Of a stretch of 64,000 bases of DNA, positions 2,343-21,554 are shown one piece after another. The stretch's first letter is position 1, and each line of letters starts with the position of its first letter. Source of the DNA: Tunturibacter empetritectus (GTDB taxonomy: Bacteria; Acidobacteriota; Terriglobia; Terriglobales; Acidobacteriaceae). The notes under the pieces are model-generated. The model searched no databases. It had not been told where the DNA came from and saw only the letters and a program-made list of their open reading frames with translations. Position numbers and translations under genes: made by a program. The stretch covers positions 1,426,001 through 1,490,000 of the forward strand of contig NZ_CP132932.1 in the NCBI RefSeq assembly GCF_040358985.1, read 5' to 3'.

Positions 2343-4388
2343 GTGATCCGTATGCGTCTAAGCGCAACTTTTCAACAGATCGTCCGTCCCCTGGTCGAGT
2401 ACCGCATCCTGCTGTCGCTTGGACTCAGCGCAGCCTGCGGCATCGTCCTTAATAGTCTTTACCCGATCAATCAGGTGAACCCTTTACTGCGGTTGATCTC
2501 ACTCGAACGGTCATCAATCTATCTCGATCTGGTATGGAGCTATAACCTGTTCCTCTACAGCACACCGTTCCTAGTGTTCTCCATGATGTTCTCTCTGATC
2601 TATGTCCATATATATAGAAAAGAGCTGGAGCAGGCTGCCGGATCGCTGCCTCCATTCGTCGATCCACGCATCAGGCAGGAGCTATCGCTGGTACTTGGCG
2701 AGGTACATCGTCAGCTCGTTCCGCGACCCAGTCCGACCCCGCGATGGCTCTCCATCCCGGAACGGGGTCTCTATACCGGCATCGCCTCCTTCGGTTCCAT
2801 CGGCTCTGGCAAAACCCTCGGCCTGATCCTGCCGGCGATGCGCCAGTTATTCGCATACCGTGCCGACGATCCGGAAAGAAAGCTCTCGGGCATCGTCCTT
2901 GAGGTCAAAGGGGACCTATGCCGCCAACTCCAACGCATCCTTATGTGGTGCGGGCGAGAGACCGACTATGACGAAATTTCCCTCGATGGCGATCTGCGCT
3001 ATAACCCGCTAAATAATACTCTCGACGCCTACGCGCAGGCATTCAACATCGCCTCCATCATTACTTCGATATGGGGCAAGGGTAAGGAGCCCTTCTGGCA
3101 GCAGTCTTATACAGACCTTGTCCGGTACGTGATCCTGCTCCACCGCATCCGCGACGGATACCTGACGATGGTCGATATCTTCCGCACCGTCATCAGCGCC
3201 GGACGACTCGAAGAACTCATGATCGAAGTTGGAACGCGCTTCAGCACAACCAGCTATATCGGTATCGATAAGGAAGCATACCTGGAGCATGAGGGTCTGT
3301 TGTCCCCGCTGGGACTCGAGTGGCGCGAAGACGAGGAACTTTACCTCGTAGCCTGGACCGAGGCGTTGGAACAGTTGCTGATCCAACACACGTCAGCAGA
3401 ATTTGCTGTTTACACTCGAAGGCCATACCAAGCTGAACAGCGAGACCTTTTCGAGAGCGTCCAGTATTGGTACTGGGAACACTGGAAGTTCTTTCGCTCC
3501 GAGGTCAAGACTTCGATCGTGCAGGGTATTGTCGTCTTTCTGTCTCTCTTTGAGACCGACGCCAAGGTCCGTCGGGTCTTCTGTCCGCCCAAAGAGCTGT
3601 ACGAAGGCAAACCCTGTTCCTCCGACCTCAAAGGACGGGTACTTCCACCGTTCGACGAACTGATCGAATCCGGCAGAATCGTCGGCCTGAACTTCCCGGT
3701 GGCTCTCAACCCCGCGCTCGCCAAGACCATCGGCACCTTCATGAAGATCGACTACCAGCGTGCCGTTCAGCTACGCATCCCGATTATGGATGCTCACCCC
3801 GAACGGCACTTCCGTCCAACGGTATTCATCTGCGACGAGTACCAGAACTTCGCTACGGTCGGTGGTGACAATCCGACTGGCGATGAGCGCTTCTACTCGA
3901 TGTCCCGGCAACCGAAGTGCATTCCCATTGTCGCAACCCAGAGCGTCTCAAGCCTCAAAGAGGCTCTTCCCAACGAAGGAGTCATGACCCTGCTACAGGC
4001 TCTCCGTACCAAGGTCTTTCTGACAACGACAGACCCAGAGACGGCACGATACGCGTCTGAGTTGTGCGGCAAAGCAGACCGTACCCGGATCAGCTACACC
4101 GTCTCTGAATCCAACACCAATGCAAATGTTGGACTTTTGAGTGGCCGCACCTCGTCCAGTAAAGGTTCCGTCTCTGCCTCAAAGCAGTACCAGAAACATA
4201 AGGAACCACTCTTTGAAGAGAAGATCTTCTTCGACCTGAAGAATGCACAGTCCGTAGTCGTTGCGTTCGACGGCATCAGCCCTTTGCCACCAACCTATTG
4301 CTATCTCAAGCCTGATTTCCTGCCCAATAATATGAGCTGGTTCGAGCAGGCGCAGATCGGCTTCAATCCGGACAGGATTTCTATATGA
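2343..4388 (+). CDS. VirD4/TraG-type conjugative coupling ATPase
   Basis: This 681-residue inner-membrane ATPase is of the type that hands relaxase-bound DNA to a type IV secretion channel. Two hydrophobic segments lie at about residues 20-40 and 60-85. Walker A is GSIGSGKT near residue 150 and Walker B is FICDEYQNFA near residue 494. A TraG/TrwB-like C-terminal part follows (VATQSVSSLKEAL, then TTTDPETARYASELCG). The GTG start at 2343 lies very near the aggag motif. An in-frame ATG at 2352 is an alternative start with better spacing. It follows the small gene at 2026 by 8 bp and leads to the 51-residue ORF and the VirB11-type ATPase. The family call is firm, but its partners are missing in this window. 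Confidence 0.92.
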   Translation: MIRMRLSATFQQIVRPLVEYRILLSLGLSAACGIVLNSLYPINQVNPLLRLISLERSSIYLDLVWSYNLFLYSTPFLVFSMMFSLIYVHIYRKELEQAAGSLPPFVDPRIRQELSLVLGEVHRQLVPRPSPTPRWLSIPERGLYTGIASFGSIGSGKTLGLILPAMRQLFAYRADDPERKLSGIVLEVKGDLCRQLQRILMWCGRETDYDEISLDGDLRYNPLNNTLDAYAQAFNIASIITSIWGKGKEPFWQQSYTDLVRYVILLHRIRDGYLTMVDIFRTVISAGRLEELMIEVGTRFSTTSYIGIDKEAYLEHEGLLSPLGLEWREDEELYLVAWTEALEQLLIQHTSAEFAVYTRRPYQAEQRDLFESVQYWYWEHWKFFRSEVKTSIVQGIVVFLSLFETDAKVRRVFCPPKELYEGKPCSSDLKGRVLPPFDELIESGRIVGLNFPVALNPALAKTIGTFMKIDYQRAVQLRIPIMDAHPERHFRPTVFICDEYQNFATVGGDNPTGDERFYSMSRQPKCIPIVATQSVSSLKEALPNEGVMTLLQALRTKVFLTTTDPETARYASELCGKADRTRISYTVSESNTNANVGLLSGRTSSSKGSVSASKQYQKHKEPLFEEKIFFDLKNAQSVVVAFDGISPLPPTYCYLKPDFLPNNMSWFEQAQIGFNPDRISI

Positions 4389-4399
4389 AGGCGGTGGAA

Positions 4400-4555
4400 A
4401 TGACGGGCAGTGGAAAGCGTAAAAAGAACGCTGCCGTTTCCTCCCTTCTCACTGACCTTGGAAATCGCTTTGCGATTCCCACATTACCACCGCCACGACC
4501 GCGGCGATCGAATTTTGATTTCAGACATTCAACCAACAAGAGGTATCAACTATGA
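4400..4555 (+). CDS. Small basic ORF (51 aa) between coupling protein and VirB11-type ATPase
   Basis: The ORF starts with ATG at 4400, 12 bases after the coupling-protein stop, with aagg about 8 bases upstream. It ends with a TGA that overlaps the next ATG (TATGA at 4551-4555). The protein begins MTGSGKRKKN and ends in a basic Pro/Arg/Asn-rich tail. Overlap at both neighbours and the absence of another gene in the 163-bp gap support translation. No family was recognised. It could be a leader cistron for translational coupling or a small transfer factor. Confidence 0.5.
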   Translation: MTGSGKRKKNAAVSSLLTDLGNRFAIPTLPPPRPRRSNFDFRHSTNKRYQL

Positions 4556-5454
4556 GCTTCGACGTTATTATTCCGTTTCTCAAACCTATCGAGCATCTTC
4601 TGTCCAGCAAAACAGTCTCCGAGATCATGGTGAATCCTGACGGCTCCGTATGGATGGAAGAGAAGGGCCATATCGTTTTACAACCAAGCGTAGGATTTGA
4701 AGACGGCGCGCTGTTGACCAGCCTCGAAGTGATCGCCAACAGCTTTGGCAAAAAACTTGACGCCGATTCGCCCATCCTCAATCTCCGACTGCCGGACGGT
4801 AGTCGTATGGCTGCGCTCATTCCCCCCGTGGTCAATCCTCAGCCCATGATGACCATCCGCAAGTTCACCTCTCGCGATTTCACGATGGACGATTTGATCG
4901 AACGCAGAATGATCACAAGCGCACAAGGACAACGACTCTCGGACGCGATTGAACGCGGCGACAATCTTCTAATCTCAGGTAGTACCTCATCAGGTAAAAC
5001 CACATTGACCAACGTGCTGGCCTCGTTCATTCCTGATGGGGATCGTATCCTGATCCTCGAAGATGTCGCTGAACTCAACATTAAGAAGCCACATGTTATC
5101 TCCGCTGAAGCCCAGCTCGATACTCATAAGAGCGAGATCAGCTTTGCTGATCTCCTCAAGGCTGCGCTCCGTCACAGGCCGGACAGGATCATTGTTGGTG
5201 AAATTCGCGGCACAGAAGCGCGAACATTTTTGGACGCTCTGAACACTGGCCATCGCGGATCGCTCTCAACCATCCACGCCAACAGCGCCGGAGATGCGCT
5301 GCGGCGTCTCGCGCAACTCGCCATGCGCGGCTCCGGAGGTGTCCCGCTGGATGACGTCGAAGAGGAGTGTAGAAGGTCCATCGACATGATCGCGCACGTG
5401 ATGAATCACGACGGTTGGCGCCATCTCTCGGAGATTCGCACATCGAGGGAATGA
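4552..5454 (+). CDS. VirB11/TrbB-type conjugative transfer ATPase
   Basis: This 300-residue cytoplasmic hexameric ATPase belongs to the secretion ATPase superfamily. The N-terminal domain ends near residue 130. Walker A is STSSGKTTL near residue 143, and the Asp box is ILILEDVAEL. The Walker B-like segment is RPDRIIVGEIRGTEA, and the His box includes GHRGSLSTIHANS. Length and motifs fit TrbB/VirB11 well. The start is fixed by overlap with the 51-residue ORF. In complete systems this gene is normally followed by trbC onward. Here the next gene is a convergent LysR regulator, so the secretion cluster is cut off or lies elsewhere. Confidence 0.92.
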   Translation: MSFDVIIPFLKPIEHLLSSKTVSEIMVNPDGSVWMEEKGHIVLQPSVGFEDGALLTSLEVIANSFGKKLDADSPILNLRLPDGSRMAALIPPVVNPQPMMTIRKFTSRDFTMDDLIERRMITSAQGQRLSDAIERGDNLLISGSTSSGKTTLTNVLASFIPDGDRILILEDVAELNIKKPHVISAEAQLDTHKSEISFADLLKAALRHRPDRIIVGEIRGTEARTFLDALNTGHRGSLSTIHANSAGDALRRLAQLAMRGSGGVPLDDVEEECRRSIDMIAHVMNHDGWRHLSEIRTSRE

Positions 5455-9885: not shown

Positions 9886-10155
9886 ATGAGCATCGGCAGC
9901 AATCATATTCATACGGTCACCGATCAGGATGGCGCCGCCATCCTCGATATCGAACACGGCACGGTCACTACGCTCAATTCCACTGGGGCCTTTGTTTGGC
10001 AACGACTTGAGCGAGGGGAAGGTCTGCAGATCATTGCCGCGAGTCTTTCGCGTGATACCGGCGAAGATGTCTTAACCGTCGAGCGTGACGTGCGCGAGTT
10101 TGTCGAATCACTCAAGCAAAACAACCTCTTGACTCGGCCTATGCGGAGGGCCTAA
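9886..10155 (+). CDS. Lasso peptide biosynthesis PqqD-like protein (B1, leader-binding RRE)
   Basis: This 89-residue PqqD-fold protein is the stand-alone RiPP recognition element that binds the precursor leader and presents it to the B2 protease and the cyclase. Visible PqqD features are a strand-rich N terminus (GAAILDIEHGTVTTLNSTG), the AFVWQRLERGE segment and a C-terminal helix (VERDVREFVESLKQNNLL). A good ribosome-binding site (ggagga) precedes the ATG by 5 bases. The stop is directly followed by the GTG of the next gene. In many proteobacterial clusters this domain is fused to the protease. Here it is separate, as in actinobacterial and firmicute types. Confidence 0.88.
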   Translation: MSIGSNHIHTVTDQDGAAILDIEHGTVTTLNSTGAFVWQRLERGEGLQIIAASLSRDTGEDVLTVERDVREFVESLKQNNLLTRPMRRA

Positions 10156-11526
10156 GTGTCAATCGCCGAAGCTACTATCGAGACGATCGAGTATCGGGTC
10201 ATCCTTGTGCGTTCTGACTCCCGCCAGCTGCTGGCGTTCGATGCAGTTGGAGGCTACTGTCTGCCGCGTGTTCGGATTCCGCTGTTTACCCGTCCAGCGG
10301 AGCAATTGCAGAAGGCTATCAAAGCCATAGTGGGACTGGCCGTTATCATTCTCGAGTTTCTCGCCGTGGAGAACGGTTGCTGCCGCTGCGCGGTTGCTGA
10401 GGTCCTTGCTCCCGATGCAAGCTCCGAACTCAGGCCGGTGACGCCCGAGAAGATTGCGGGTGCCGAGTTATCCGAACAGGAGCGTGCCCAACTTGCTTCC
10501 CTGCTTTCCGGCACCAGCCATTCCGCAGTATCCCAGATCGGCTGGATCGATCAGGCAATTGGATGGCTTGAGTGGGAGACTGCTGCGAAGCTCTCGTCCA
10601 AGAGCCAAATCGAACAGTACAACGCGGGTGGAGCTTTCTCCCTTATCCGTTTTCCTATGGACGATACGACGAATTACTGGCTGAAGGCGACGGGCGAGCC
10701 ATGTATACACGAACTCCCGATTACGAAGCATTTGTCCGAGCTGAGCGGTGATTGTCTCCCACACTTCGTCTCAGCACGGCCAGAATGGAACGCCTGGTTG
10801 ATGTCAGGTGGGCCCCAGGTCGAGGAGGTGACTACCGAGCCTTACAAGCTCTTCTGCTTTTTGGAAGGCGCCGCTGGATCCATAGCTGAACTTCAAATGA
10901 GAACTCAAGGACACAGCCAGAATCTGATGGACTCCGGCGTCTTCGATCAAGGCTTCGATGTCTTTCAAATGCATTCCGAAGCATTATTCGACTCTCTCGA
11001 AGAGGCCATGAGCCTGCAAACCTCATCCAGGGTTCCTCGTCTTGAACGATCACGTCTGCAGGAGATTCGCATAATATTCGATGATGTATGCAGTCGCATG
11101 GAGCGTCTCGATATACCCAAGACTATCGTGCATGGAGACATCAATTACGGCAATATCTTGTTCCGTTCCGGACGTTGTCAGTTCATTGACTGGTGCGAGG
11201 CATATATCGCTAGTCCACTCATTTCCCTACAGCACCTGTTGCTTCTTAACAAGACGAAGGATCCGGAGCTGAGGGGCTTCATGAGCCAGGGGATCACGGA
11301 CAGGTATCGAACGATCTGGTTGCGATCCTGCAATGCCGGCTCATTCGATAAGGGATTGATTTATATGCCGCTCCTTGCGGTTGTCTCGACCTTGTATGGA
11401 AGAGGCGATTGGCTGACTTCGCCCCAACGAAATGATCCCCGACGGCAGTCGTACGCACGCAGTCTTGCGCGACACATGGACAACGCAGCGCGCGAGCCGA
11501 AGCTGCTGGAGGCGCTATGCCACTAA
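10156..11526 (+). CDS. NUDIX-like / APH-type phosphotransferase fusion in lasso operon
   Basis: This protein has 456 residues and a GTG start immediately after the B1 stop. The first 130 residues resemble the NUDIX fold seen in lasso-associated proteins (YRVILVRSDSRQLLAFDAVG, YCLPRV) but lack a recognisable NUDIX box. The C-terminal half is an aminoglycoside/choline-kinase-like domain with the catalytic-loop motif VHGDINYGNILF and the metal-binding-type FIDWCEAY. These residues suggest an active kinase. Kinases that phosphorylate the lasso tail are known (paeninodin HPr-kinase type), but this is a different kinase fold. Modification of the precursor or product is therefore inference. It overlaps the prolyl oligopeptidase start by 10 bases. 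Confidence 0.78.
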   Translation: MSIAEATIETIEYRVILVRSDSRQLLAFDAVGGYCLPRVRIPLFTRPAEQLQKAIKAIVGLAVIILEFLAVENGCCRCAVAEVLAPDASSELRPVTPEKIAGAELSEQERAQLASLLSGTSHSAVSQIGWIDQAIGWLEWETAAKLSSKSQIEQYNAGGAFSLIRFPMDDTTNYWLKATGEPCIHELPITKHLSELSGDCLPHFVSARPEWNAWLMSGGPQVEEVTTEPYKLFCFLEGAAGSIAELQMRTQGHSQNLMDSGVFDQGFDVFQMHSEALFDSLEEAMSLQTSSRVPRLERSRLQEIRIIFDDVCSRMERLDIPKTIVHGDINYGNILFRSGRCQFIDWCEAYIASPLISLQHLLLLNKTKDPELRGFMSQGITDRYRTIWLRSCNAGSFDKGLIYMPLLAVVSTLYGRGDWLTSPQRNDPRRQSYARSLARHMDNAAREPKLLEALCH

Positions 11527-13546
11527 CCAACTCAATTCATACTCCGGTCGAAGAACTCATCCACGGCGTTGTGGTACGTGACCCTTATCGCTGGCTTGAA
11601 GATCGGAATCTTCCCGAAACGGAAGAATGGCTCCGCGATCAGCACTTGAGGTGCGAAGAATATTTCGCAGACTGCATCGATCTCGACGGGCTTCGAAAGC
11701 GTGCACGTGAGTATCTGGATATCGAAGTCGTCGATCAGCCGGCAAGAGTGGCAGGCCGATACTTTTACCGTCGGCGCGATAGAGGGCAGGAACAGGCAAG
11801 CATCTACATTCGAGACATGACATCGGGACTCGAGCGGCTACTCGTCGACCCTGCGGCGATGGGACCCTTCACAAGCGTCGGCATCCATCAGGTCGCCGAC
11901 GACGGATCGCTGCTCGCTTATGAGCTCAAACGGGATGGCGGAGATCGGAAAGCCATCCGCATTGTAGATGTTGTGAGTGGTTACATCTTGCCCGACAGCA
12001 TCGAGACCGGCTATGCGAGGGGCTTCTGCTTCACTTCGGATCTTCGGGGGTTTTATTATTGCCACGAAGTGCTGGAATCACCGGAAGAGCATTTGATCTG
12101 CGTCCACCTGTTTGGAGAGCCAGCCGAGGATCAGGTATGTTTTCGCGCTCCACGCACGCGTGGAAGCCGCTTGCTCCTGAGAGCCGATGAGATCCATTTG
12201 GGTGCGTTGTACGTACACGAGCTCGATGGGGAGTTCGTTGTCGATTTCTGGGTCGCCCGGCGCGATGAGACGAAGATCTGGAATTGTGTGTTCGCAAATC
12301 GCACCCTCCCATTTGGCCCCATTTTGAAACAAGGTCGTCTTTTCGCTCTCAGCTACGAACATGCCTCCCGGGGAAGCTCGTGGAGCTCGATCTCGCGGGA
12401 ACTGAGATCCGGACGGTCATTGCGGAGCAGGCAGGGACAATCCGTGAGCTCATCATGCTCGGCGACAGAATCTTTATCAACTATCTGGATCAACTGGAAC
12501 ATTCGGTCCGTTGCTGGAATCTCGCTGGGAAAGATATGGGCCGTGTACCCATTCCCCCGAATGGAACAGTTCAACTGCTGGCTCACCATGGCGACCATGG
12601 AAATAGTGTCTTCTACACATTTGAATCGTTCACGCAGCCGCTCGTCTTGTTTGAGTATGAGATTGACGCCGACGAGCCGCACCTCTGGCACCGGAGATGC
12701 ACACCAATAGCGCCTTTGTGTACTATTCGTGAGGCCTATTACCCCTCCGGAGACGAAAAGAGCATTCCGATAACCCTCGTGACTCCCAAAGGAGTTGGTT
12801 TGAGCGCTGGATTGCCAGTGTTGATGACAAGCTATGGAGGCTTCGGTGTGTCGATGACGCCACAGTTCTCCGTTCTCGTGTCCATCATGATGGAGCTGGG
12901 CTGTACCTTCGTGCTGCCCCACATCCGCGGCGGCGGGGAGTTCGGAAAGGATTGGCACGAAGCTGGCCGAGGAAGAAATCGCCAGGTAGCTTTCAGCGAT
13001 TTCATAGCCGCCGCGGAGTGGCTGAACAGGGAAAGTTTGACTTCGCCTCGGCTTGCCATCTTTGGCGGATCGAACTCGGGGCTATTGGTCTGCGCAGGGA
13101 TGACGCAGCGGCCAGATCTGTTCACCGCTGTACTCTGCATTGCTCCGCTTCTGGACATGGTGCGTTACGAATTTTTCGACCAAGCCGCGAAGTGGCGGAA
13201 GGAGTATGGGACTGTCAACGATCCGCAGGACTTCTCCGCTCTGTACGCATCTTCTCCGTACCACCATATTGGGGACCATATGAACTATCCGTCCTTATTG
13301 TTTGTAGCCGGAGACAGCGATGATCGCTGTAATCCCGCTCATGTCAGGAAGATGGCGGCTCGTCTGCAGAACCGCGCGGCCCAACGTTCTCCCATCATCG
13401 TGGACTACTGCGGAGAACGAGGACATTCCCCGGTTCTGCCTTTGTCTGTTCGCATCGAGGCCTTAGCAAGGAGAATCGCTTTTCTGTGCAAGGAGCTCAA
13501 CCTGCCTGTCGTCTTCGGAGACTGTCATGAAACGGCTTGTGCTTGA
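11517..13546 (+). pseudogene. Prolyl oligopeptidase (S9A) interrupted by one frameshift
   Basis: The first part, in frame from ATG 11517, begins like prolyl oligopeptidases (DPYRWLEDRNLPETEEWLRDQ). The family's sequence continues in the -1 frame from about 12371 to the stop at 13546. The break falls at a run of four Gs (12370-12373), where a fifth G would restore one frame of about 676 residues, near the usual length. The C-terminal part has the catalytic Ser in FGGSNSGLL, the Asp region GDSDDRCNP and the His in ERGHSP. Apart from this one base the gene looks sound, so a recent mutation or a sequencing error is likely. It is distinct from the isopeptidase at 16083. Its role in the lasso operon is unknown. 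Confidence 0.85.
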
Positions 13547-13904
13547 AAGCTGGTTATTGTTGCTCTATTTCGAATTAATCTTACGCGTCTGCGGCTTCAA
13601 ACACCTTCATCGCACTGTCCGAGAGATGAAGGTACGACCCGTTGGCGAGCAGGATTGCCTGACAAGCACCGGCCTGTGTCATGCCGTCGATCTGGCCTGC
13701 GTCTTTTATTTCAAGCGAGTGATGTGCTTGCAACGTTCAGCCGCAACGACGCTTCTGTTGCGTCGTCATGGGTGGGCAGCAGAGATGGTCATCGGAGCCC
13801 AGATAATGCCGTTCCGCTCGCACGCGTGGGTGGAGATCAAGGGTGTTGTCGTGAATGACAAACCGTACATGCTGGATACGTACCGGGTACTGGAGCGCTG
13901 CTGA
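13527..13904 (+). CDS. Lasso peptide biosynthesis B2 protein (transglutaminase-like leader peptidase)
   Basis: This 125-residue cysteine protease cuts the leader from the precursor. The family pattern is complete: the nucleophile in CLQRSAATTLLLRRHG, the His in FRSHAWVEIKG and the Asp in VVNDKP. The N terminus is hydrophobic (LESWLLLLYFELILRVCG), as usual for B2. The start overlaps the end of the prolyl oligopeptidase frame by 20 bases, with ggag 5 bases before the ATG. The cyclase starts 13 bases after its stop. Function is inferred from family and position, but both are strong. Confidence 0.92.
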   Translation: MKRLVLESWLLLLYFELILRVCGFKHLHRTVREMKVRPVGEQDCLTSTGLCHAVDLACVFYFKRVMCLQRSAATTLLLRRHGWAAEMVIGAQIMPFRSHAWVEIKGVVVNDKPYMLDTYRVLERC

Positions 13905-13917
13905 TCTGAGGTAGGTC

Positions 13918-15762
13918 ATGAGTGTTATTTTCGGAATCAGAAAGACCGAAGGAGCGTTGGTCGAGGGGCGGCAACTACTCGACCTAGCTCACGCGACTAA
14001 TCGCTATGCGCTGGATGGGACCTTTGTACGAGCCAAGGGAAGCGTCGGGATGGGCTTTCAGTCGTACCGTACTCATCAGCGTGCTGATCTGGAATCCCAG
14101 CCATTCCTCGATGACTTCGGCAATATGGTCTCGTTGGATGGCCGCCTCGATAATCACAAAGAACTTCGTGAATTGCTGGACATTCCTGGGACGGATACGG
14201 CGGATTCGCTGATCATTCTAACGGCTTTCCGTTGCTGGGGGGAGGAGTGCTTTGCTAGATTTGTGGGAGACTGGGCGCTCGCTCTTTGGATACAAGAGAA
14301 CAGCTCGCTTTACCTCGCTAGAGATCATGCCGGTACGCGGACGCTATATTTTGAAGAAACAAACGGCCATCTTGTATGGTCGACCTTCTTGGAGACCTTC
14401 TTTGCCGATAGAAGGTCGAGGCCTCTGGATGAAACTTATGCGGCACGCTACCTGTCGTGCCACCCAATCGGCGACCTGACACCCTTCGCCAATATTGCTG
14501 CGGTGACCCCCGCGCACTATTTCATCTTCTCTAAGGGAACCATTGTTCGCAGACCGCACTGGCAATGGATGGTCAAAGACCGGATCACCTACAACCAGGA
14601 CAGTGAATATGAGGAGCATTTCCTGAAGCTCTTTGCACAGGCTGTCGATCGTCGCACCGGTCCCGGGGCCCCGATTCTCGCGCACCTCAGCGGTGGGATG
14701 GACTCCAGCGCAATTGTTTGCATGTCCGACACCCTCAGGCTGCATCAGGGGCGACAAATAGAGCAACTGCTCGATACGGTTTCGTTTTACGACGACTCCG
14801 AGCCAGCCTGGGATGAAAAACCTTATTTTACGGCTGTGGAGTCCCAGCGAGGCAAAGTGGGTTTACACGTTGACGTATCTTCAACACGCCCAACATTCAC
14901 TCCGCTGTCTTGTCCTCCAGGGGGATATCCCCTACTGCCGGGGAACGATGGGGGCTCCTACGAACAAAGGGAGCACTTTGAAGAAATCTTGGCATCGCGG
15001 GGATATCGAGTCCTCTTGTCCGGAGTCGGAGGAGATGAGCTCTTGGGGGGCGTGCCGACGCCTCTGCCCGAGCTGTCCGATTATCTCTTGACCTGCAATC
15101 TCGCTGCTTTGTTTCAGAAGACGCTTCCTTGGTGCCTGAGTTTGCGCACCTCGCTCCTACATCTGGTTCGGGATACTGTTAGGTTCTCAAAGCGCGCCTA
15201 TTGGAGCGGTTCATCCGGCAAGATACACCTGCCGCCATGGGCCTCCCCCCGCTTGGAACCGAACGAGGCTGATGCCAAACAAGAAGGAGGTTTGCTCCTG
15301 CCGAGTAGGGTCATGAACGGAAGAACGTGGTGGTCGATACTGGAGACCCTTCCCAGCCCCCACCTTGCATCTTCGAGAAGAGAATACCGTTTTCCTTACC
15401 TTGACCGAGATCTGGTGGATTTCCTCCTTCGCATCCCCAATGATCAGCTCGTTCGCCCAGGCCGAAGACGCGCTCTCATGCGTAGAGCGCTCTCGGGCAT
15501 TCTTCCCTCCATTGTATTGGAGCGGCGCAGGAAGGCCTATATCGATCGAGGACCAGCTGTCACACTTGCCCTCTCTACAGACACAATTCTGGACTCCGTG
15601 GCGAACTCACTCCTGGCCAGGCATGGATATATCGACATTCCTAAATTCGAAAGCTTTCTTCGTCAAGTGGGATCCCAAGATCAGAGCAGGTGGGGATTGT
15701 CTCTCATGAGGACATCCCTCTTTGAAATCTGGTTGAAGTCAGGATGGGCCACCATTCCTTAG
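13918..15762 (+). CDS. Lasso macrolactam synthetase (asparagine-synthetase-like C protein)
   Basis: This 614-residue enzyme adenylates a side-chain Asp/Glu of the core and closes the isopeptide bond with the core N terminus. The N-terminal glutaminase-like domain starts MSVIFGIRKTEG and lacks the catalytic Cys2 of true glutamine-dependent synthetases. That loss is the rule for lasso cyclases. The PP-loop SGGMDSSAIV is near residue 260 and the ATP/acid site GVGGDELLGG near residue 370. The start has a gaggtagg site. It follows B2 directly and precedes the precursor. The family assignment is firm. Confidence 0.93.
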   Translation: MSVIFGIRKTEGALVEGRQLLDLAHATNRYALDGTFVRAKGSVGMGFQSYRTHQRADLESQPFLDDFGNMVSLDGRLDNHKELRELLDIPGTDTADSLIILTAFRCWGEECFARFVGDWALALWIQENSSLYLARDHAGTRTLYFEETNGHLVWSTFLETFFADRRSRPLDETYAARYLSCHPIGDLTPFANIAAVTPAHYFIFSKGTIVRRPHWQWMVKDRITYNQDSEYEEHFLKLFAQAVDRRTGPGAPILAHLSGGMDSSAIVCMSDTLRLHQGRQIEQLLDTVSFYDDSEPAWDEKPYFTAVESQRGKVGLHVDVSSTRPTFTPLSCPPGGYPLLPGNDGGSYEQREHFEEILASRGYRVLLSGVGGDELLGGVPTPLPELSDYLLTCNLAALFQKTLPWCLSLRTSLLHLVRDTVRFSKRAYWSGSSGKIHLPPWASPRLEPNEADAKQEGGLLLPSRVMNGRTWWSILETLPSPHLASSRREYRFPYLDRDLVDFLLRIPNDQLVRPGRRRALMRRALSGILPSIVLERRRKAYIDRGPAVTLALSTDTILDSVANSLLARHGYIDIPKFESFLRQVGSQDQSRWGLSLMRTSLFEIWLKSGWATIP

Positions 15763-15834: not shown

Positions 15835-15854
15835 GTCACAAAAGGAGTAATTCT

Positions 15855-16004
15855 ATGCGCTACACGGAACCAGTTGTTTTGTCCTACTCCATGGCTAGTT
15901 CTTCCGTCATGGGCTCTCCGAAGGCAACCAGAAACCCTGACAACATTGAAGGTGGCATGCCTGCTTTCCTCAGTTCCGTCGGAGCATATGAGGCGGACGA
16001 GTAA
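15855..16004 (+). CDS. Candidate lasso peptide precursor (49 aa)
   Basis: This short gene is preceded by a perfect-looking ribosome-binding site, aaaggag, 7 bases before the ATG. It lies 92 bp after the cyclase and ends just before a convergent-gene terminator. The leader has the Y-x-x-P motif bound by PqqD-like proteins (Tyr3, Pro6, then VVL). If Tyr sits at -17 as in fusilassin, the core begins at Gly20 (GSPKATRNPD...) with Val at -2, and Asp29 is position 10. Starting at Ser21 gives a 9-residue Ser1-Asp9 ring, reminiscent of paeninodin (P8-D9). Ala24-Glu32 is a third possibility. The tail is long and ends acidic (AYEADE). Precursor identity is likely, but the ring is unresolved. Confidence 0.75.
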   Translation: MRYTEPVVLSYSMASSSVMGSPKATRNPDNIEGGMPAFLSSVGAYEADE

Positions 16005-16082: not shown

Positions 16083-18389
16083 CTAGTGTGGCGAATCCAG
16101 CCGGCGTTCTGCATTAACTGCGCTCCGCAATTCACGCCATCGCTGGTATTGCTGAGGGTCCATCGCTGTAGGTCGCTCTTGGTCTCTTAGCCAGAACAGA
16201 TACCAATCCAGATTGCGTTCTAGCGATGCCAGGCGGGCCAAGGGATGACCGGGCTGGTGCGACTCCAGAGGATAGTAGTACATCTCGACAGGTTTTCCTA
16301 GGCGACTGAGTCCGACAAACACCTCCCACTTTAGAGCGAGATTGCTTGGAGGTGCCCCATCGTTGTCATACGCCACGCCGTTACCCATTACCTCCATCAA
16401 CAATGGAGTCTGAACCCTTGGAAGGTTGAACGAGATGGAATAGTCCAGCCACGATCTCAGTGTCGCGCCATAGGGCGGCCCTCCGTACATCGCATCCCAA
16501 GCGCGTAGAACCCCATCCGTGTGGATCATCCAATACTCGCCCAAGCTGTATTGTGTATTATCTGCGACGGTCGCTGCAGCATAGTTTGTTTTGCCGTGTG
16601 TAAGCGCAAATTCGGTATACCAGCCGGAACGGCTGAAGCCTATGATTCCAACTCTGTTCCGGTCAATGAGGCCGTCCTTCGCAAGATGGTCGATGGCACT
16701 ATCCCAGACATCCGCCTGAAATGCTACTTGTCCCAAAAGTCCAGGGAGGCCTTTGGGATAGTGGGTTTGTTCCTCCGCTGTCTGCGGTCCTTCGGGCAAA
16801 AAACGAATCAAATACATGATTCCGGCATTTGCAATCGGCTGGGGAGCAAATGAGGGCTCGTGATTCAAGCCACTATCGCAAAAGAAATTACCCGCTGCTG
16901 GATATGAGTGGATCACCAAGGGATAGCGTGTGCCTGGCTTGTAGTCCGGAGGTAGAAGGAGAATGCCGGAGGCACGATAGCCGGTCGAAGTCTCCCACTG
17001 CACTTCTTTGATTGGTGCCAGAGTCAGTTCGTCGAACTGCGGATTGAGCTTGGCCAGGATCTGCACCTGTTCTTCGTCCTCTTTGTAAGAAAACAGCTCC
17101 GGCGGAGTTGCCGGTGATTCATAGTCTCCTACGACAGATTTTCCATCGCTCGCAAGCCCTGCATTCCTGAAGAGCCCCTGAAGGGGAAGATGGATCTGCG
17201 ACGACTCCTCCCACTTCTGATGCTTATACTGAAACCGCGAAACGATGTTGTCTCCTGTACGAAGGACAAGATCGTCATCGGATCTCCACGACAAGGGACG
17301 ATCGTAGATTCCATTAAGTTCAGAACGAACCTGTATGACCGAGCCGGACGCAACGTTGACTTCGAATAAGTGAACTGCCTCGCTGGCTCCTCGATGCTCT
17401 CGCAGGTCTTGCTGCTCCCACACGCTATTGACTGGAGAGACAGAGGCGATCATGAACGACTTGCTGTCGCGCGACCAGAAGGGAATGCTCCATGCCCATG
17501 GGCCCTCAAATGGAAGATGTGTTTCGCCGTCCGATAAATCGACCACTACAGTAACCTGCGCTACTCCAATGCTGGAAAGGATGTCCCGAACTACCGGGCT
17601 TTTCTTCCAGGCGTTTGAAATCCGGCTGGAATTTTCAAGATATGTTAACGCCAGCGACTCTCCATTTGGAGAGAGGCTTAGCCGCAGATTGAGGGCGTAG
17701 GAAAGAGACGTGAGAGTTCCCTTGGTAAATGGCGACTGCACGTTCAAGGCCTGTGGTGCGGTCCACCCTCCCGTACCGCGTCTCCGGGTAACGAAGATCT
17801 TTCGCCGAAAGAAGAGCGCTACCTGCTCTCTCTGAAAGGGGATTCTATAGCCTTGCGCGAGGTCGCTGGCACTTTTTAGCTTGTTCCGGGTTTGGTCCGG
17901 CTCTTCCATCGCAAAGACAATGGTTTTACCATCTTCGGCGACGCTGTATTCGGAGATATCCTGAGACGCTCGCGCTAAGACCTGGACGCGTCCTGAAGGG
18001 ATCTCAACCTGTTTAACAACGGTGTGGCCGTCATCCTTCGCCAAGACAATGACGGCCGTGCCATCGTTCAGCCACTGCAAGCCGGAGATATCCGCACCGG
18101 CGAGTAAGTGTTGCACTTGCCCCTGCGGCGCACCAAGCTGTTTCAGCTCGAGGAGAATATCGTTCTGATTTGACTGAAGATTAGGGGCCTGAACCAGGTA
18201 CGCAACAGCAGTCCCTTGGGAATTGGTCTGAATGGAAGAACGAAAATCGTCCTCGAGAAAGTGCCGGACAGTAACGCAATCTGCCGGAACGATTGCCCTC
18301 CGCAACTCAGCCTGAAGACTTCCCGCGAAGACGCATAGGGTGAATATCAAGAACTTGTTGTGGCGCTTCCACATCTTCTGTTGGGTCAT
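16083..18389 (-). CDS. Atxe2-type lasso peptide isopeptidase (S9 family)
   Basis: This 768-residue serine hydrolase is of the kind that opens the lasso isopeptide bond and linearises the peptide. A signal peptide is evident (FLIFTLCVFAGSLQA), indicating the periplasm. After it comes CVTVRHFLEDD, the typical start of the Atxe2 family, then a beta-propeller. The hydrolase domain has the catalytic Ser in GIIGFSRSGW near residue 590 and the His in ESHQPGHPLARLASLE near residue 715, both family hallmarks. It is last in a minus-strand operon with the receptor (15-bp gap), anti-sigma and sigma factors. This arrangement is known from proteobacterial lasso loci, where the isopeptidase is specific for the cognate peptide. 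Confidence 0.92.
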   Translation of the reverse strand: MTQQKMWKRHNKFLIFTLCVFAGSLQAELRRAIVPADCVTVRHFLEDDFRSSIQTNSQGTAVAYLVQAPNLQSNQNDILLELKQLGAPQGQVQHLLAGADISGLQWLNDGTAVIVLAKDDGHTVVKQVEIPSGRVQVLARASQDISEYSVAEDGKTIVFAMEEPDQTRNKLKSASDLAQGYRIPFQREQVALFFRRKIFVTRRRGTGGWTAPQALNVQSPFTKGTLTSLSYALNLRLSLSPNGESLALTYLENSSRISNAWKKSPVVRDILSSIGVAQVTVVVDLSDGETHLPFEGPWAWSIPFWSRDSKSFMIASVSPVNSVWEQQDLREHRGASEAVHLFEVNVASGSVIQVRSELNGIYDRPLSWRSDDDLVLRTGDNIVSRFQYKHQKWEESSQIHLPLQGLFRNAGLASDGKSVVGDYESPATPPELFSYKEDEEQVQILAKLNPQFDELTLAPIKEVQWETSTGYRASGILLLPPDYKPGTRYPLVIHSYPAAGNFFCDSGLNHEPSFAPQPIANAGIMYLIRFLPEGPQTAEEQTHYPKGLPGLLGQVAFQADVWDSAIDHLAKDGLIDRNRVGIIGFSRSGWYTEFALTHGKTNYAAATVADNTQYSLGEYWMIHTDGVLRAWDAMYGGPPYGATLRSWLDYSISFNLPRVQTPLLMEVMGNGVAYDNDGAPPSNLALKWEVFVGLSRLGKPVEMYYYPLESHQPGHPLARLASLERNLDWYLFWLRDQERPTAMDPQQYQRWRELRSAVNAERRLDSPH

Positions 18390-18404: not shown

Positions 18405-21400
18405 CTAAAATTGAATCTTCAATGCAAATTGAAGAGAGCGAGGACCGCCCTGTTGGTATTGCGAACCTAAGGTAGCGAGACTTTGATTCAGCGTCTGAGT
18501 AGCCTGTCCAAACGTAGCATCGGACAGCGTCGAATCGATCAGACCGAACATCGGATGGTTGAGGAGATTGAACGCTTCCGCTCTGAACTGCACTGTTGCG
18601 CTACCCGCCAGGGGGAAGGTGCGGCGTGCGGCGAGGTTGATCTGCGAAGCATCGAATCCTCTTACGAAGTTGCGCGGGGCATTCCCTGTCTTCTCCGCTG
18701 CCGGAAGCTGGAAAGCAACCTGATTGATCGAACGTCCACCTGGATATTGGGAACCATAGAGATAGACAGGTTGAGTTGCGATCAGGTCGACATTGCTATA
18801 GTAACGGCTACCTGTTGCCGGATCGGTAAGCAGGTCGCCTCCCAAAGTGACGGGGAAAGCAGTCCGTGCTATGAGGCGGCCATCGAGCGCCCACCCTCCA
18901 AGGATCGCTTCCGCACTCTTCCTCTGGTACTCGCCTGGCAGCTCCCAACTCACCCCTCCCTGAAGATTATCTCTGACGTCGAAGTCGGAGTTCCCTCGAG
19001 TCAGTGGCAGAGAAGCGTTGTTTGAACCGAAGTCTAACGAGTGAGACCAGGTGTAGGAGGCAAGCGCCTGAATGCCGTGGGTCACTGTGCGCTGGAACTG
19101 TATCTGCAAGGCCTGGTAGTTCGATGTGGTTCCCGTTTGGACGACATCCACGGTGCTGAAGTTCGGATTCAACGCTGTCAGAGAGAGCTGCTGCATCTGC
19201 AATAGCCGCCGGCCGTTCGATCCGACATAGGAGACTGTCAGAGCCTGAGGCCGCCCCAATGCCTGTTGCAGGCTCACATTCCATTGCAGCGTATATGGCA
19301 GTTGCAGATGCGGGGGAAAAGCAACTACTGCGGTGCTGGTGTAGGGAGCGGTGGTGGAAGGCGAGAAAGCCAACTGTGCTGGAATTACCGGGAATGCCTG
19401 GCCCGTTCCGATTTGAATTGCGGAGAAACCGAGATACTGATAGCCCGTTGTGGCGATTTGGTTTCCGCTGTCGAAGAACACGCCAGCCCCTGTCCTCAAA
19501 ATCGTCTCCCAATCCGGCTGATCCCGAGCCGTCCATGCAGCTCCAAGTCTCGGAGCGAAGTTGTACCAACTTGTCTTCCACAATGGTGTCCCTCGTGGTG
19601 CGACTGTAAGCGAACTAGGGTCGGCTAGATCGCCGAGAAGGGTGAAGGCGTCGTTCCCGTGCTCTTCGGTTGGCGGGGGATCGATCTCCCACCGAATCCC
19701 ACCGGAGATGGTCAGCCTTGGAAGCGAATGCCATTCGTCCTGCAAGAACACCGCGGTTTCGTTAAATATTGGCGTGGCTGGCAGAACCTTCGAGAGAATA
19801 CCGATATCCGCGCTGTTATTGAGAACCGAGGATTGATCGAGATAGATGCCCGAGACATAGGGAGATGATGGATACAGTGGAGATTTGATCCTCCGGTAGT
19901 CGATGCCGAGCTTGAGCTGGTGCTTCCCGAGGCTCAGACCGGCTGTATCGACGATATTCCATTGTCGGCTCTGATTCACACTGCCGATTGCCTGCAAGAT
20001 CGATGTTCCCGTACCGAAAAAGCTCAGTTGAAAAGCGCTGCCGGCAGTTTTAGACGCTTCATTCCCAAGCGCGCTTCCGAGGTCAACGGACGTAGCTCCT
20101 CCAAAGGAATCCAACGCCGTTTGCGTTCTCGAGTCGCTACGGGAGTAGCCAAGTCGGAACTCATTTGTGAACCGATTTGATAATTGGCTGGTTGCGCCAA
20201 CAGTGTAGGTCTGTGTGTCAAATGAAGTCTGCGTTAGAGCAGAGAGCACGCGGGTGCTGGTGGAGCTGGGTGTATCGCTAAAGCGAAAGAAGACGCTCGA
20301 CTTGGGTGAGACGACGTAATCGATCCGGCCGCTGATGGAGTCGATCTTGCTCGGGAGAGAGAAAGGCTCGATGAACTGCGCAAGACCGCTAGCGTAGTCG
20401 ATGCCGCCGATGCTTGGAAGAGGAAAAGCGCTAAGTATGGACTTCATGGCAGGAGGAGCATTCTGCCTCATGGCAGCGTCAGGAACATACTGAATTGAAG
20501 CAGCTTGAGGTTGGGTAAGCCGAAGCCCCTCGTAGGAAGCAAAGAAGTAGCTTGGGTGCGAAGGCGGACCAAGATACGGAAGGTGGATTGGGCCTCCGAG
20601 TGTTCCCCCAAAGTCGTTCTGGCGTAAAGGGGTGATCGCTCTTCCGTAATGGTCGTTAAACCAGTTGTTCGCGTCGAAGTAATTGTTGCGAAGATAGTCG
20701 AATGCGCTCCCATGAAATTTCTTTGTGCCCGACCGGGTAAGTAGTGAGAACTGTCCTCCAGGGGAGCGCCCGTACTCCGCAGAATAGGTTGATCCGGATA
20801 CACGGAACTCTTGCAGCGCATCGACCGAAACCAGGCTTTGCGTCGTGCCAAGGGCGGTTGTAGCTCCGATCCCTCCGCTGGTCGCCGCTTGAGGACCTCC
20901 CGTTGCTGCTCCGGCGCCGACGTTCGCGCTCACACCGTCGACCGCGTAGTAATTGCTCTCGGTTCGCTGGCCATTCACACTGAAATCACCGCTCGCGCCC
21001 ACAGCTTGAGACGACTGCGGGCTCTGAGTCACGATGCCTGGCGTCATTGAGATGAGATCCTGAAAACTGCGGCCGTTGAGGGGGATATTCGCAACAAATT
21101 TGCGGTCAATCACCGTACTGACCGAAGCGTCCGCTGTATTGAGCAAGGACGACCCAGCTTCCACCGTGATGCTCTGCGACGTCGCCCCCACGGGCAGAAC
21201 AAAGTTCAGCGCGATAGCCCCTTGCACATTCAGAACCACGTCAGGCTTGATGATGGTCTTGAAGCCCTGCTTCGAGACCTGCACATGGTAGTGTCCCGGA
21301 GGCAGGATGGGAACGAAGTACATTCCTGAGGTGTTCGTCTGGTCGGAATACCGCACGCCGGTCTCATCATTGGCAATCTCCACCGCGGCGCCCGTGATAA

Positions 21401-21554
21401 AACGGCCTGTGGGATCGGTGACTCCTCCGCTGATCGTGGCACTCGTCGACTGGGAAAACACCGCCGTGGAGACGAACCAGAGGGAGGACAGGAGAAGGCA
21501 AGCAAGTAGCTTCATACGACGATGCTCCGGAAATCTAGGATGAAAGGTGTTCAT
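18405..21554 (-). CDS. TonB-dependent receptor with carboxypeptidase-regulatory domain (lasso locus)
   Basis: This 1,049-residue outer-membrane protein is of the Oar-like acidobacterial type. The signal peptide is LACLLLSSLWFVSTAVFSQS. A CarboxypepD_reg-like beta-sandwich follows at about 30-125 (ATISGGVTDPTGRFITGAAV). The plug includes IPLNGRSFQDLISMTPGIV, and the remainder is barrel, ending in LQFALKIQF with the terminal aromatic residue expected for barrel insertion. It sits between the anti-sigma gene (49-bp gap) and the isopeptidase (15-bp gap), so import of the lasso peptide or a lasso-bound ligand is a reasonable inference. Such receptors are also used for glycans, so substrate is unproven. 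Confidence 0.88.
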   Translation of the reverse strand: MNTFHPRFPEHRRMKLLACLLLSSLWFVSTAVFSQSTSATISGGVTDPTGRFITGAAVEIANDETGVRYSDQTNTSGMYFVPILPPGHYHVQVSKQGFKTIIKPDVVLNVQGAIALNFVLPVGATSQSITVEAGSSLLNTADASVSTVIDRKFVANIPLNGRSFQDLISMTPGIVTQSPQSSQAVGASGDFSVNGQRTESNYYAVDGVSANVGAGAATGGPQAATSGGIGATTALGTTQSLVSVDALQEFRVSGSTYSAEYGRSPGGQFSLLTRSGTKKFHGSAFDYLRNNYFDANNWFNDHYGRAITPLRQNDFGGTLGGPIHLPYLGPPSHPSYFFASYEGLRLTQPQAASIQYVPDAAMRQNAPPAMKSILSAFPLPSIGGIDYASGLAQFIEPFSLPSKIDSISGRIDYVVSPKSSVFFRFSDTPSSTSTRVLSALTQTSFDTQTYTVGATSQLSNRFTNEFRLGYSRSDSRTQTALDSFGGATSVDLGSALGNEASKTAGSAFQLSFFGTGTSILQAIGSVNQSRQWNIVDTAGLSLGKHQLKLGIDYRRIKSPLYPSSPYVSGIYLDQSSVLNNSADIGILSKVLPATPIFNETAVFLQDEWHSLPRLTISGGIRWEIDPPPTEEHGNDAFTLLGDLADPSSLTVAPRGTPLWKTSWYNFAPRLGAAWTARDQPDWETILRTGAGVFFDSGNQIATTGYQYLGFSAIQIGTGQAFPVIPAQLAFSPSTTAPYTSTAVVAFPPHLQLPYTLQWNVSLQQALGRPQALTVSYVGSNGRRLLQMQQLSLTALNPNFSTVDVVQTGTTSNYQALQIQFQRTVTHGIQALASYTWSHSLDFGSNNASLPLTRGNSDFDVRDNLQGGVSWELPGEYQRKSAEAILGGWALDGRLIARTAFPVTLGGDLLTDPATGSRYYSNVDLIATQPVYLYGSQYPGGRSINQVAFQLPAAEKTGNAPRNFVRGFDASQINLAARRTFPLAGSATVQFRAEAFNLLNHPMFGLIDSTLSDATFGQATQTLNQSLATLGSQYQQGGPRSLQFALKIQF

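Follow-up and report, generated by a model that had tools for sequence, protein, structure and literature searches.

An internal lysine may close the ring of lasso-type peptides in a large acidobacterial cyclase clade

Introduction

Lasso peptides are defined by a ring made with the N-terminal amine, and the tools that mine genomes for them seek core residue 1 together with an acid at position 7 to 9. We analyzed a 64,000-nucleotide stretch of the Tunturibacter empetritectus genome (hereafter the window), in which an earlier note had read a 49-codon open reading frame at 15855-16004 (+) as a lasso precursor that departs from these rules. With Tyr3 of the Tyr3-x-x-Pro6 leader placed at -17, the core starts at Gly20, Val18 rather than Thr stands at -2, and the first acid, Asp29, falls at position 10; the ORF, the residue numbering, and these assignments all hold on reexamination. 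Which two residues, then, would close the ring? Comparison with relatives suggests that in more than a hundred related genes a Lys closes it in place of the first residue.

The cluster and its precursor gene

The precursor, 49 amino acids long, is the last gene of a same-direction lasso-type cluster that runs in the order RRE/B1, APH-like kinase, S9 peptidase, B2, cyclase, and precursor, followed by a convergent isopeptidase and an outer-membrane receptor. B1, a PqqD-like RiPP recognition element (9886..10155, +), matches PF05402 (E 1.7e-14) and scores 45 bits against NCBIfam lasso_PqqD_Strm, under the cut-off of 70. Next comes a 456-aa APH/RIO-type kinase-like gene (10156..11526, +; PF01636, 24.4 bits, cut-off 23.2), found in most relatives, not all. 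The prolyl-oligopeptidase/oligopeptidase-B-like S9 peptidase (11517..13546, +; PF02897/PF00326) has the oligopeptidase B model as its best NCBIfam match, at 97.3 bits with a cut-off of 1313. A one-base frameshift, located in a G run near 12369, divides this gene between two ORFs; genome G209 of the same species has an intact copy, and the frameshift may reflect either a true loss or an error of sequencing. B2, a transglutaminase-like leader peptidase (13527..13904, +), matches NF033537 lasso_biosyn_B2 at 79.9 bits (cut-off 33), and C, an asparagine-synthetase-like lasso cyclase (13918..15762, +; PF00733), matches NF033535 lass_lactam_cya at 242.7 bits, under the cut-off of 525. On the opposite strand lie an AtxE2-like lasso isopeptidase of the S9 family (16083..18389, -; NF033523 lasso_peptidase, 196 bits, under the cut-off of 400), a gene present in 67 of 84 loci scanned, and a TonB-dependent-receptor-like outer-membrane beta barrel (18405..21554, -; PF25183 E 1.7e-140, PF07715), which is the probable uptake partner.

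B1, B2, and an AsnB-like C thus adjoin the precursor, and this gene order recurs across relatives, as in a lasso cluster. A phosphorylated lasso of the paeninodin type finds no match here, as the kinase is of the APH/RIO and not the HPr type and the precursor has Glu rather than Ser as its C-terminal residue. Nine cluster ORFs were scanned for the ATP-grasp ligase that makes the Lys-acid lactams of graspetides, and none matched. Upstream of the cluster, at window positions 2343-5454, are conjugation-type genes (a TraG/TraD-like coupling protein and a VirB11-like ATPase), and the cluster may therefore lie close to an integrated mobile element.

The precursor gene sits between the cyclase and isopeptidase genes, with a ribosome-binding site, AAAAGGAG, before its ATG (15840..15847, +). 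Its leader comprises residues 1-19 (15855..15911, +), including Tyr3 at -17, Pro6 at -14, Val18 at -2, and Met19 at -1, and the junction that follows is fixed in relatives. If cut there, as the relatives and the accessible text of PMC10368454 suggest, the core would be residues 20-49 (15912..16001, +), ending in the conserved motif AYEADE with Tyr45 (15984..16001, +). The precursor matched no Pfam or NCBIfam model, and models from both collections likewise missed the related precursors described below. The same core occurs at the same place in G209, and less similar homologues were found at L127 (51% identity) and L134 (40%).

Relatives and the fixed leader junction

Relatives were collected from cyclase matches at E <= 1e-30, obtained in 68/398 genomes sampled from the window's family, and B2 matches at E <= 1e-5, obtained in 27/396 genomes of the phylum. 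Wide regions around the matches were taken, the cluster genes were located, and small ORFs downstream of the cyclase were read out; by this ORF rule, one or more precursors came from 78 of the 84 regions scanned. Named genomes were scanned as well and supplied 80 more loci, among them L144 of Edaphobacter lichenicola M8UP22 with a 98% identical cyclase, and only unseen precursors were added, for a total of 146. ORF matches dropped as spurious before counting were L114 at 125, L124 at 1234, and six in the added set, and some F-start ORFs in the added and held-out sets were disregarded as chance. The rule found no precursor in six loci of the first set (L090, L097, L102, L129, L139, and L140), of which L090 lies at a contig end while L102 and L129 have a truncated or broken cyclase. 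Nor did it find any in the added loci L151, L176, L197, L201, L202, L210, L212, L216, L218, and L221, although L151 and L176 do hold precursors that the filter missed. Every homologous locus with a precursor conserves the same ORF, and the different small ORF that the earlier note had named as a possible refutation did not appear. L129 (G117 C1) is a degenerate lasso cluster with a TAG stop inside the cyclase frame, and searches there for B1 and the isopeptidase gave no match.

The relatives fall into two classes. One, which we call the Lys class, was first drawn as the 112 precursors with a C-terminal Tyr tail; the same cyclase clades hold L119, L130, and L177, which were then included by hand. 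Among these 115, Tyr is present at -17 in 114, Pro at -14 in 113, Ala at -6 in 107, and Gln at -1 in 69. Position -2 is Ile or Val in 111 (Ile in 93, Val in 18, as at Val18 of the window), and +1 is Gly or Ser in 81. Ile/Val at -2 in Acidobacteriaceae has already been described by alignment in the accessible text of PMC10368454, which also reports, for a Bradymonas cluster, leader removal by an Ile(-2)-type B2 and an effect of Ile(-2) on this step.

The tail of the Lys class is of the Tyr-x-x-acid type (AYEADE, YDLDE, YxDWE), with an acid-to-Tyr distance between 8 and 17. Although AYEADE is expected within the product, it is strongly conserved, and it might have a role in export, in uptake by the receptor, or for the kinase. 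We considered the kinase as the cause of the Tyr tail and rejected it, as no kinase match was found in the Tyr-tail loci L068, L073, L091-L095, and L101; the same-strand gap of L093 holds only one ORF of at least 150 codons.

Lys and the acid move together

Measured from the junction, the window's core has its first acid at position 10 and none at 7-9, and this departure, correctly recorded in the earlier note, turned out to be common to the whole family. We took the first Asp or Glu at position 7 or later as the acid, ignoring Lys in the choice. Among 95 unique family cores, 36 have this acid at 7-9 and 59 at 10-17; in those 59, an ordinary ring from the junction is therefore impossible. Lys stands 6 or 7 residues before this acid in 76 of the 95, a count independent of the class definition, compared to 22.1 +/- 4.0 (maximum, 38) in 5000 shuffles of the junction-to-acid residues. 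Most of the 19 misses have a Lys at the same spacing from a second acid. When any acid is allowed, Lys-x5/6-acid occurs in 106/115 Lys-class precursors, a count that takes in two identical-core pairs (window/L108 and L065/L125); shuffles gave 19.8 +/- 3.9 (maximum, 36), and offsets 3-5 were not enriched. The Lys-x7-acid spacing is found in eight more, L122 and seven members of the DWE-tail group. In L119 the spacing is Lys-x4-Glu (Lys + 5), and Gly1-Glu9 is a possible ring there.

In the window, the pair consists of Lys23 (15921..15923, +), the proposed nucleophile, and Asp29 (Lys + 6; 15939..15941, +), the proposed ring acid. In the alignment of cyclase-linked precursors, a check that the earlier note had suggested, the Gly20, Ser21, and Ala24 starts it had listed were not supported, and Lys23, which it had not considered, is conserved at a near-fixed distance from Asp29. 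The Lys position, compared across 35 path-disjoint neighbor pairs, differs in 18 of them (mean change, 0.89 residues), and the Lys-acid spacing differs in 13 (mean change, 0.37 residues). The sequences are related, and neighbor pairs deal with phylogenetic dependence only partly. Since the Lys-acid distance is kept while both residues drift from a fixed junction, the internal Lys is likely to be half of the ring, and in the window we consider it probable that Lys23 and Asp29 close it, by one amine of the Lys or the other.

The other class behaves differently. In its 31 precursors, the first qualifying acid is at 7-9 in 31/31, residue 1 is Gly in 24, and the Lys-x5/6-acid pair is present in 3. 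This ordinary Gly1-acid(7-9) type is that of the more distant acidobacterial precursors and of those from cyanobacteria.

Cyclase Gly378 and a held-out prediction

The two classes are also separated by their cyclases. In a quick cyclase tree of 105 rows, of whose inner branches 35/102 were drawn weak, the 18 canonical rows form one supported clade, cyanobacteria included, and a small canonical group (L088, L098, and L184) sits beside Lys-class rows. Precursors of this nested group have an acid at position 8 after Gly1, a different Lys spacing, and no Tyr tail; the kinase and the S9 peptidase were searched for in L088 and L098, and neither was found.

The residue aligned to Gly378 of the window's cyclase, which comes after the SGxGGDE motif, is Gly in 84/84 Lys-class cyclases and in 0/18 canonical ones (mostly Ser, Asn, Cys, or His), this being the best of several hundred alignment columns. 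Gly stands there in 0/3 of the nested canonical cyclases too (Gln, Asn, or Met instead), a subclade that counts as one event. Escherichia coli AsnB and beta-lactam synthetase align a Gly in this column too, and Gly may be the old state. Since the column was chosen as the best and Gly recurs in these two enzymes, Gly378 alone is only an association. We sought a solved lasso cyclase on which to map it, and the search returned only AsnB, beta-lactam synthetase, and hydroxyamidotransferase structures.

A prediction was written before 35 further regions were fetched, many of which carried precursors already seen. Each of the 21 new precursors beside Gly378 cyclases has an acid 6-8 residues after a Lys; the spacing is +8 in 5 and +6 or +7 in 16 (judged by eye, some positions computed). 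These come from L226, L229, L231, L232 (two), L234 (two), L235, L236 (two), L244 (two), L242 (three), L243 (three), and L252 (three). The two new precursors beside cyclases without Gly378 (L247 and L251) start the core with Gly1, have the acid at 8, and lack the Lys-x5/6 pair; in L251, not one Lys precedes the acid. A Tyr tail had been predicted too, and the three L252 precursors, for which Gly1-Glu9 is also a possible ring, do not have it. No precursor was found in the held-out loci L254-L257.

Ring closure and competing explanations

We infer the cleavage site, the bond, and the threading from sequence evidence. In the scheme that we propose, B1 and B2 would cut off the leader behind residue 19, where the fixed junction lies, and Lys23 and Asp29 would close the ring of a lasso-type peptide. 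Closure through the Lys side chain would give a 26-atom ring, the size of an ordinary Gly1-Glu8 ring, and a product with a free Gly-Ser-Pro tail before the ring and a 20-residue C-terminal tail ending in AYEADE. By this route, spacings of 6 and 7 to Asp correspond to 26 and 29 ring atoms, as in Gly1-Glu8 and Gly1-Glu9, and +6, +7, and +8 together would span 26-33 atoms, which at the top end is beyond known rings.

In the main rival explanation, the core starts at Lys and the same pair is joined by an alpha-amine. A cut before Lys23, or trimming back to it, would leave Lys1 to form a 7-residue ring to Asp7, and spacings of +6, +7, and +8 would correspond to ring sizes of 7, 8, and 9, all well established for lassos. 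This coincidence keeps the explanation alive, and residue 1 does vary among lasso peptides, with asparagine 1 reported for metanodin in the accessible text of PMC12670498. The leader junction argues the other way, as -2, -1, and +1 are kept at a fixed distance from the Tyr even when Lys is far off. When Lys lies at position 5 or beyond, as in 62 precursors, -2 is Ile or Val in 60 and -1 is Gln, Lys, or Glu in 50, and Gly, Ser, Ala, or Asn occupies +1 in 49, compared to 21 at +2 and 23 at +3. The residues directly before Lys, where a second cut would fall, are unconserved (0.54 bits at Lys-1 and 0.75 bits at Lys-2), and Lys-1 is Pro in 9/115. In the 104 precursors with the pair, Lys occurs at positions 2-9, and core residue 1, where no second cut would be needed, is never Lys, which argues against the Lys alpha-amine. 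Finally, no second protease is common to all clusters, and the S9 peptidase is missing from many. Since the junction is kept when Lys lies at position five or later, since the residues before Lys are unconserved and Lys is never at position 1, and since a common second protease is lacking, we favor the side chain and regard a core starting at Lys as unlikely. The chance that the window's ring is closed by the Lys side chain, with the N-terminal tail left free, seems to us about even.

Oligopeptidase B cleaves after basic residues, and we also considered cutting by the S9 peptidase after Lys. This was rejected, as the peptidase is missing from many Lys-class loci and Lys+1 is Pro in 10/115. A comparison by eye of S9 peptidase presence with prolines showed nothing clear.

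Ordinary alpha-amine closure from the junction with a relaxed ring size is a poorer candidate. It would join Gly20 to Asp29 in a ring of 10 here and make other sizes elsewhere, and Lys would have another role, such as pairing with the acid in folding or cyclase recognition. The conserved junction and the Gly/Ser at +1 fit this explanation, and L252 and some others could form Gly1-Glu9 with Lys3 inside the ring. On the other hand, it requires rings of 8 to 17 residues while the other class keeps to 7-9 throughout, and the joint movement of Lys and acid is left unexplained. The 10-residue ring raised in the earlier note is only one case within that range, and the window's peptide probably does not contain it; the explanation as a whole appears improbable.

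We consider it comparably improbable that the product is not a lasso and that the AsnB-like enzyme makes an unthreaded Lys-Asp/Glu lactam bridge or modifies the acid otherwise. A Lys-acid pair would also suit a simple bridge, and the cyclase scores below the NCBIfam lasso cut-off. Against this stands the presence of B1 and B2, a leader of the lasso type, and an AtxE2-like isopeptidase, and isopeptidases recognize threaded lassos only, according to the accessible text of a review (PMC13352647).

A normal 9-residue ring from Ser21 to Asp29 or from Ala24 to Glu32 satisfies the size rule in the window's sequence taken alone and is very improbable, as neither start is conserved in relatives or follows the conserved junction: the position equivalent to Ser21 (Lys-2) holds Gly in 20, Ser in 15, Thr in 14, Leu in 11, and Gln in 11 of 115, and that of Glu32 (acid+3) carries 0.42 bits (n=115).

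Comparison with known systems

No lasso ring with a side-chain amine as its nucleophile is known to us. Literature searches, with preprints, supplements, and most subscription papers outside their scope, turned up no Lys-closed lasso ring that we recognized, and the accessible text of a 2026 review describes lasso closure by the N terminus only (PMC13352647).

Several described clusters resemble the window in layout. The bsf cluster of Bradymonas sediminis shares with it a split B1/B2, a kinase gene, a YxxPxL leader, and Ile/Val at -2, but its core is described as Gly1-Asp8 with a phosphorylated Ser3, whereas the window's class has a Lys-acid pair at a variable distance from the junction; its kinase is described as HPr-kinase-like (at low identity), whereas that of the window is APH-like (PMC10368454, accessible text). 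In the main text of that paper, words beginning with "Lys" occur twice, in unrelated contexts. An acidobacterial soil-metagenome cluster, BGC 482.1, has the order B1, aminoglycoside-phosphotransferase-like kinase, B2, C, and A, as in the window, but its authors assigned a ring between an Asp and a Gly suitably spaced from it, whereas the window's class has the Lys-acid pair (PMC9064862, accessible text). The "group II" clusters of PMC12670498 are described in its accessible text as having a split B, tailoring genes, and, in three cases, a prolyl oligopeptidase, like the window; eight clusters were chosen for expression there, and no product peak was seen except for BGC 89 (group I). The accessible text of PMC9064862 and PMC12670498 yielded no discussion of a Lys partner for the ring.

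Astexin/benenodin-type clusters (AtxE2) have a convergent S9-type isopeptidase and a TonB-type receptor beside the precursor, as does the window, but they are alpha-proteobacterial, have a fused B, and make rings of 8-9 through the alpha-amine. In the lasso peptide lariocidin B, the side chain of Lys2 does take part in an isopeptide bond, but this bond makes a second ring, to the C-terminal carboxyl, after Ser1-Asp8 closure, and a clostripain-family peptidase is implicated (PMC11451635, accessible text).

Whether a large acidobacterial cyclase clade uses the side-chain amine of an internal Lys and not the N-terminal amine is, in our judgment, a question poised between yes and no. If it does, each product would be a lasso with a tail at either end and with the N terminus as a free handle, the rule for finding them would be Lys-x5,6(,7)-Asp/Glu at any distance from the leader, and comparing Lys-class with nested canonical cyclases would reveal how the nucleophile is chosen. 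Lys-class products predicted by residue-1 tools would carry the wrong connectivity, which could be one reason for undetected products in published expression attempts. Even if Lys is residue 1, about a hundred precursors now have testable core predictions.

Locus architecture

Two further features recur among the loci. Tandem pairs of lasso cyclase genes are present at L068, L073, L178, L181, L187, L241, L243-L246, L249, and L254, and most of these loci have DWE-tail precursors with Lys-acid spacings that are mostly 7-8. Up to three precursor genes stand in a row beside one cluster at L089, L164, L187, L242, L243, and L252, and these serial precursors differ in their cores while keeping the leader and the tail.
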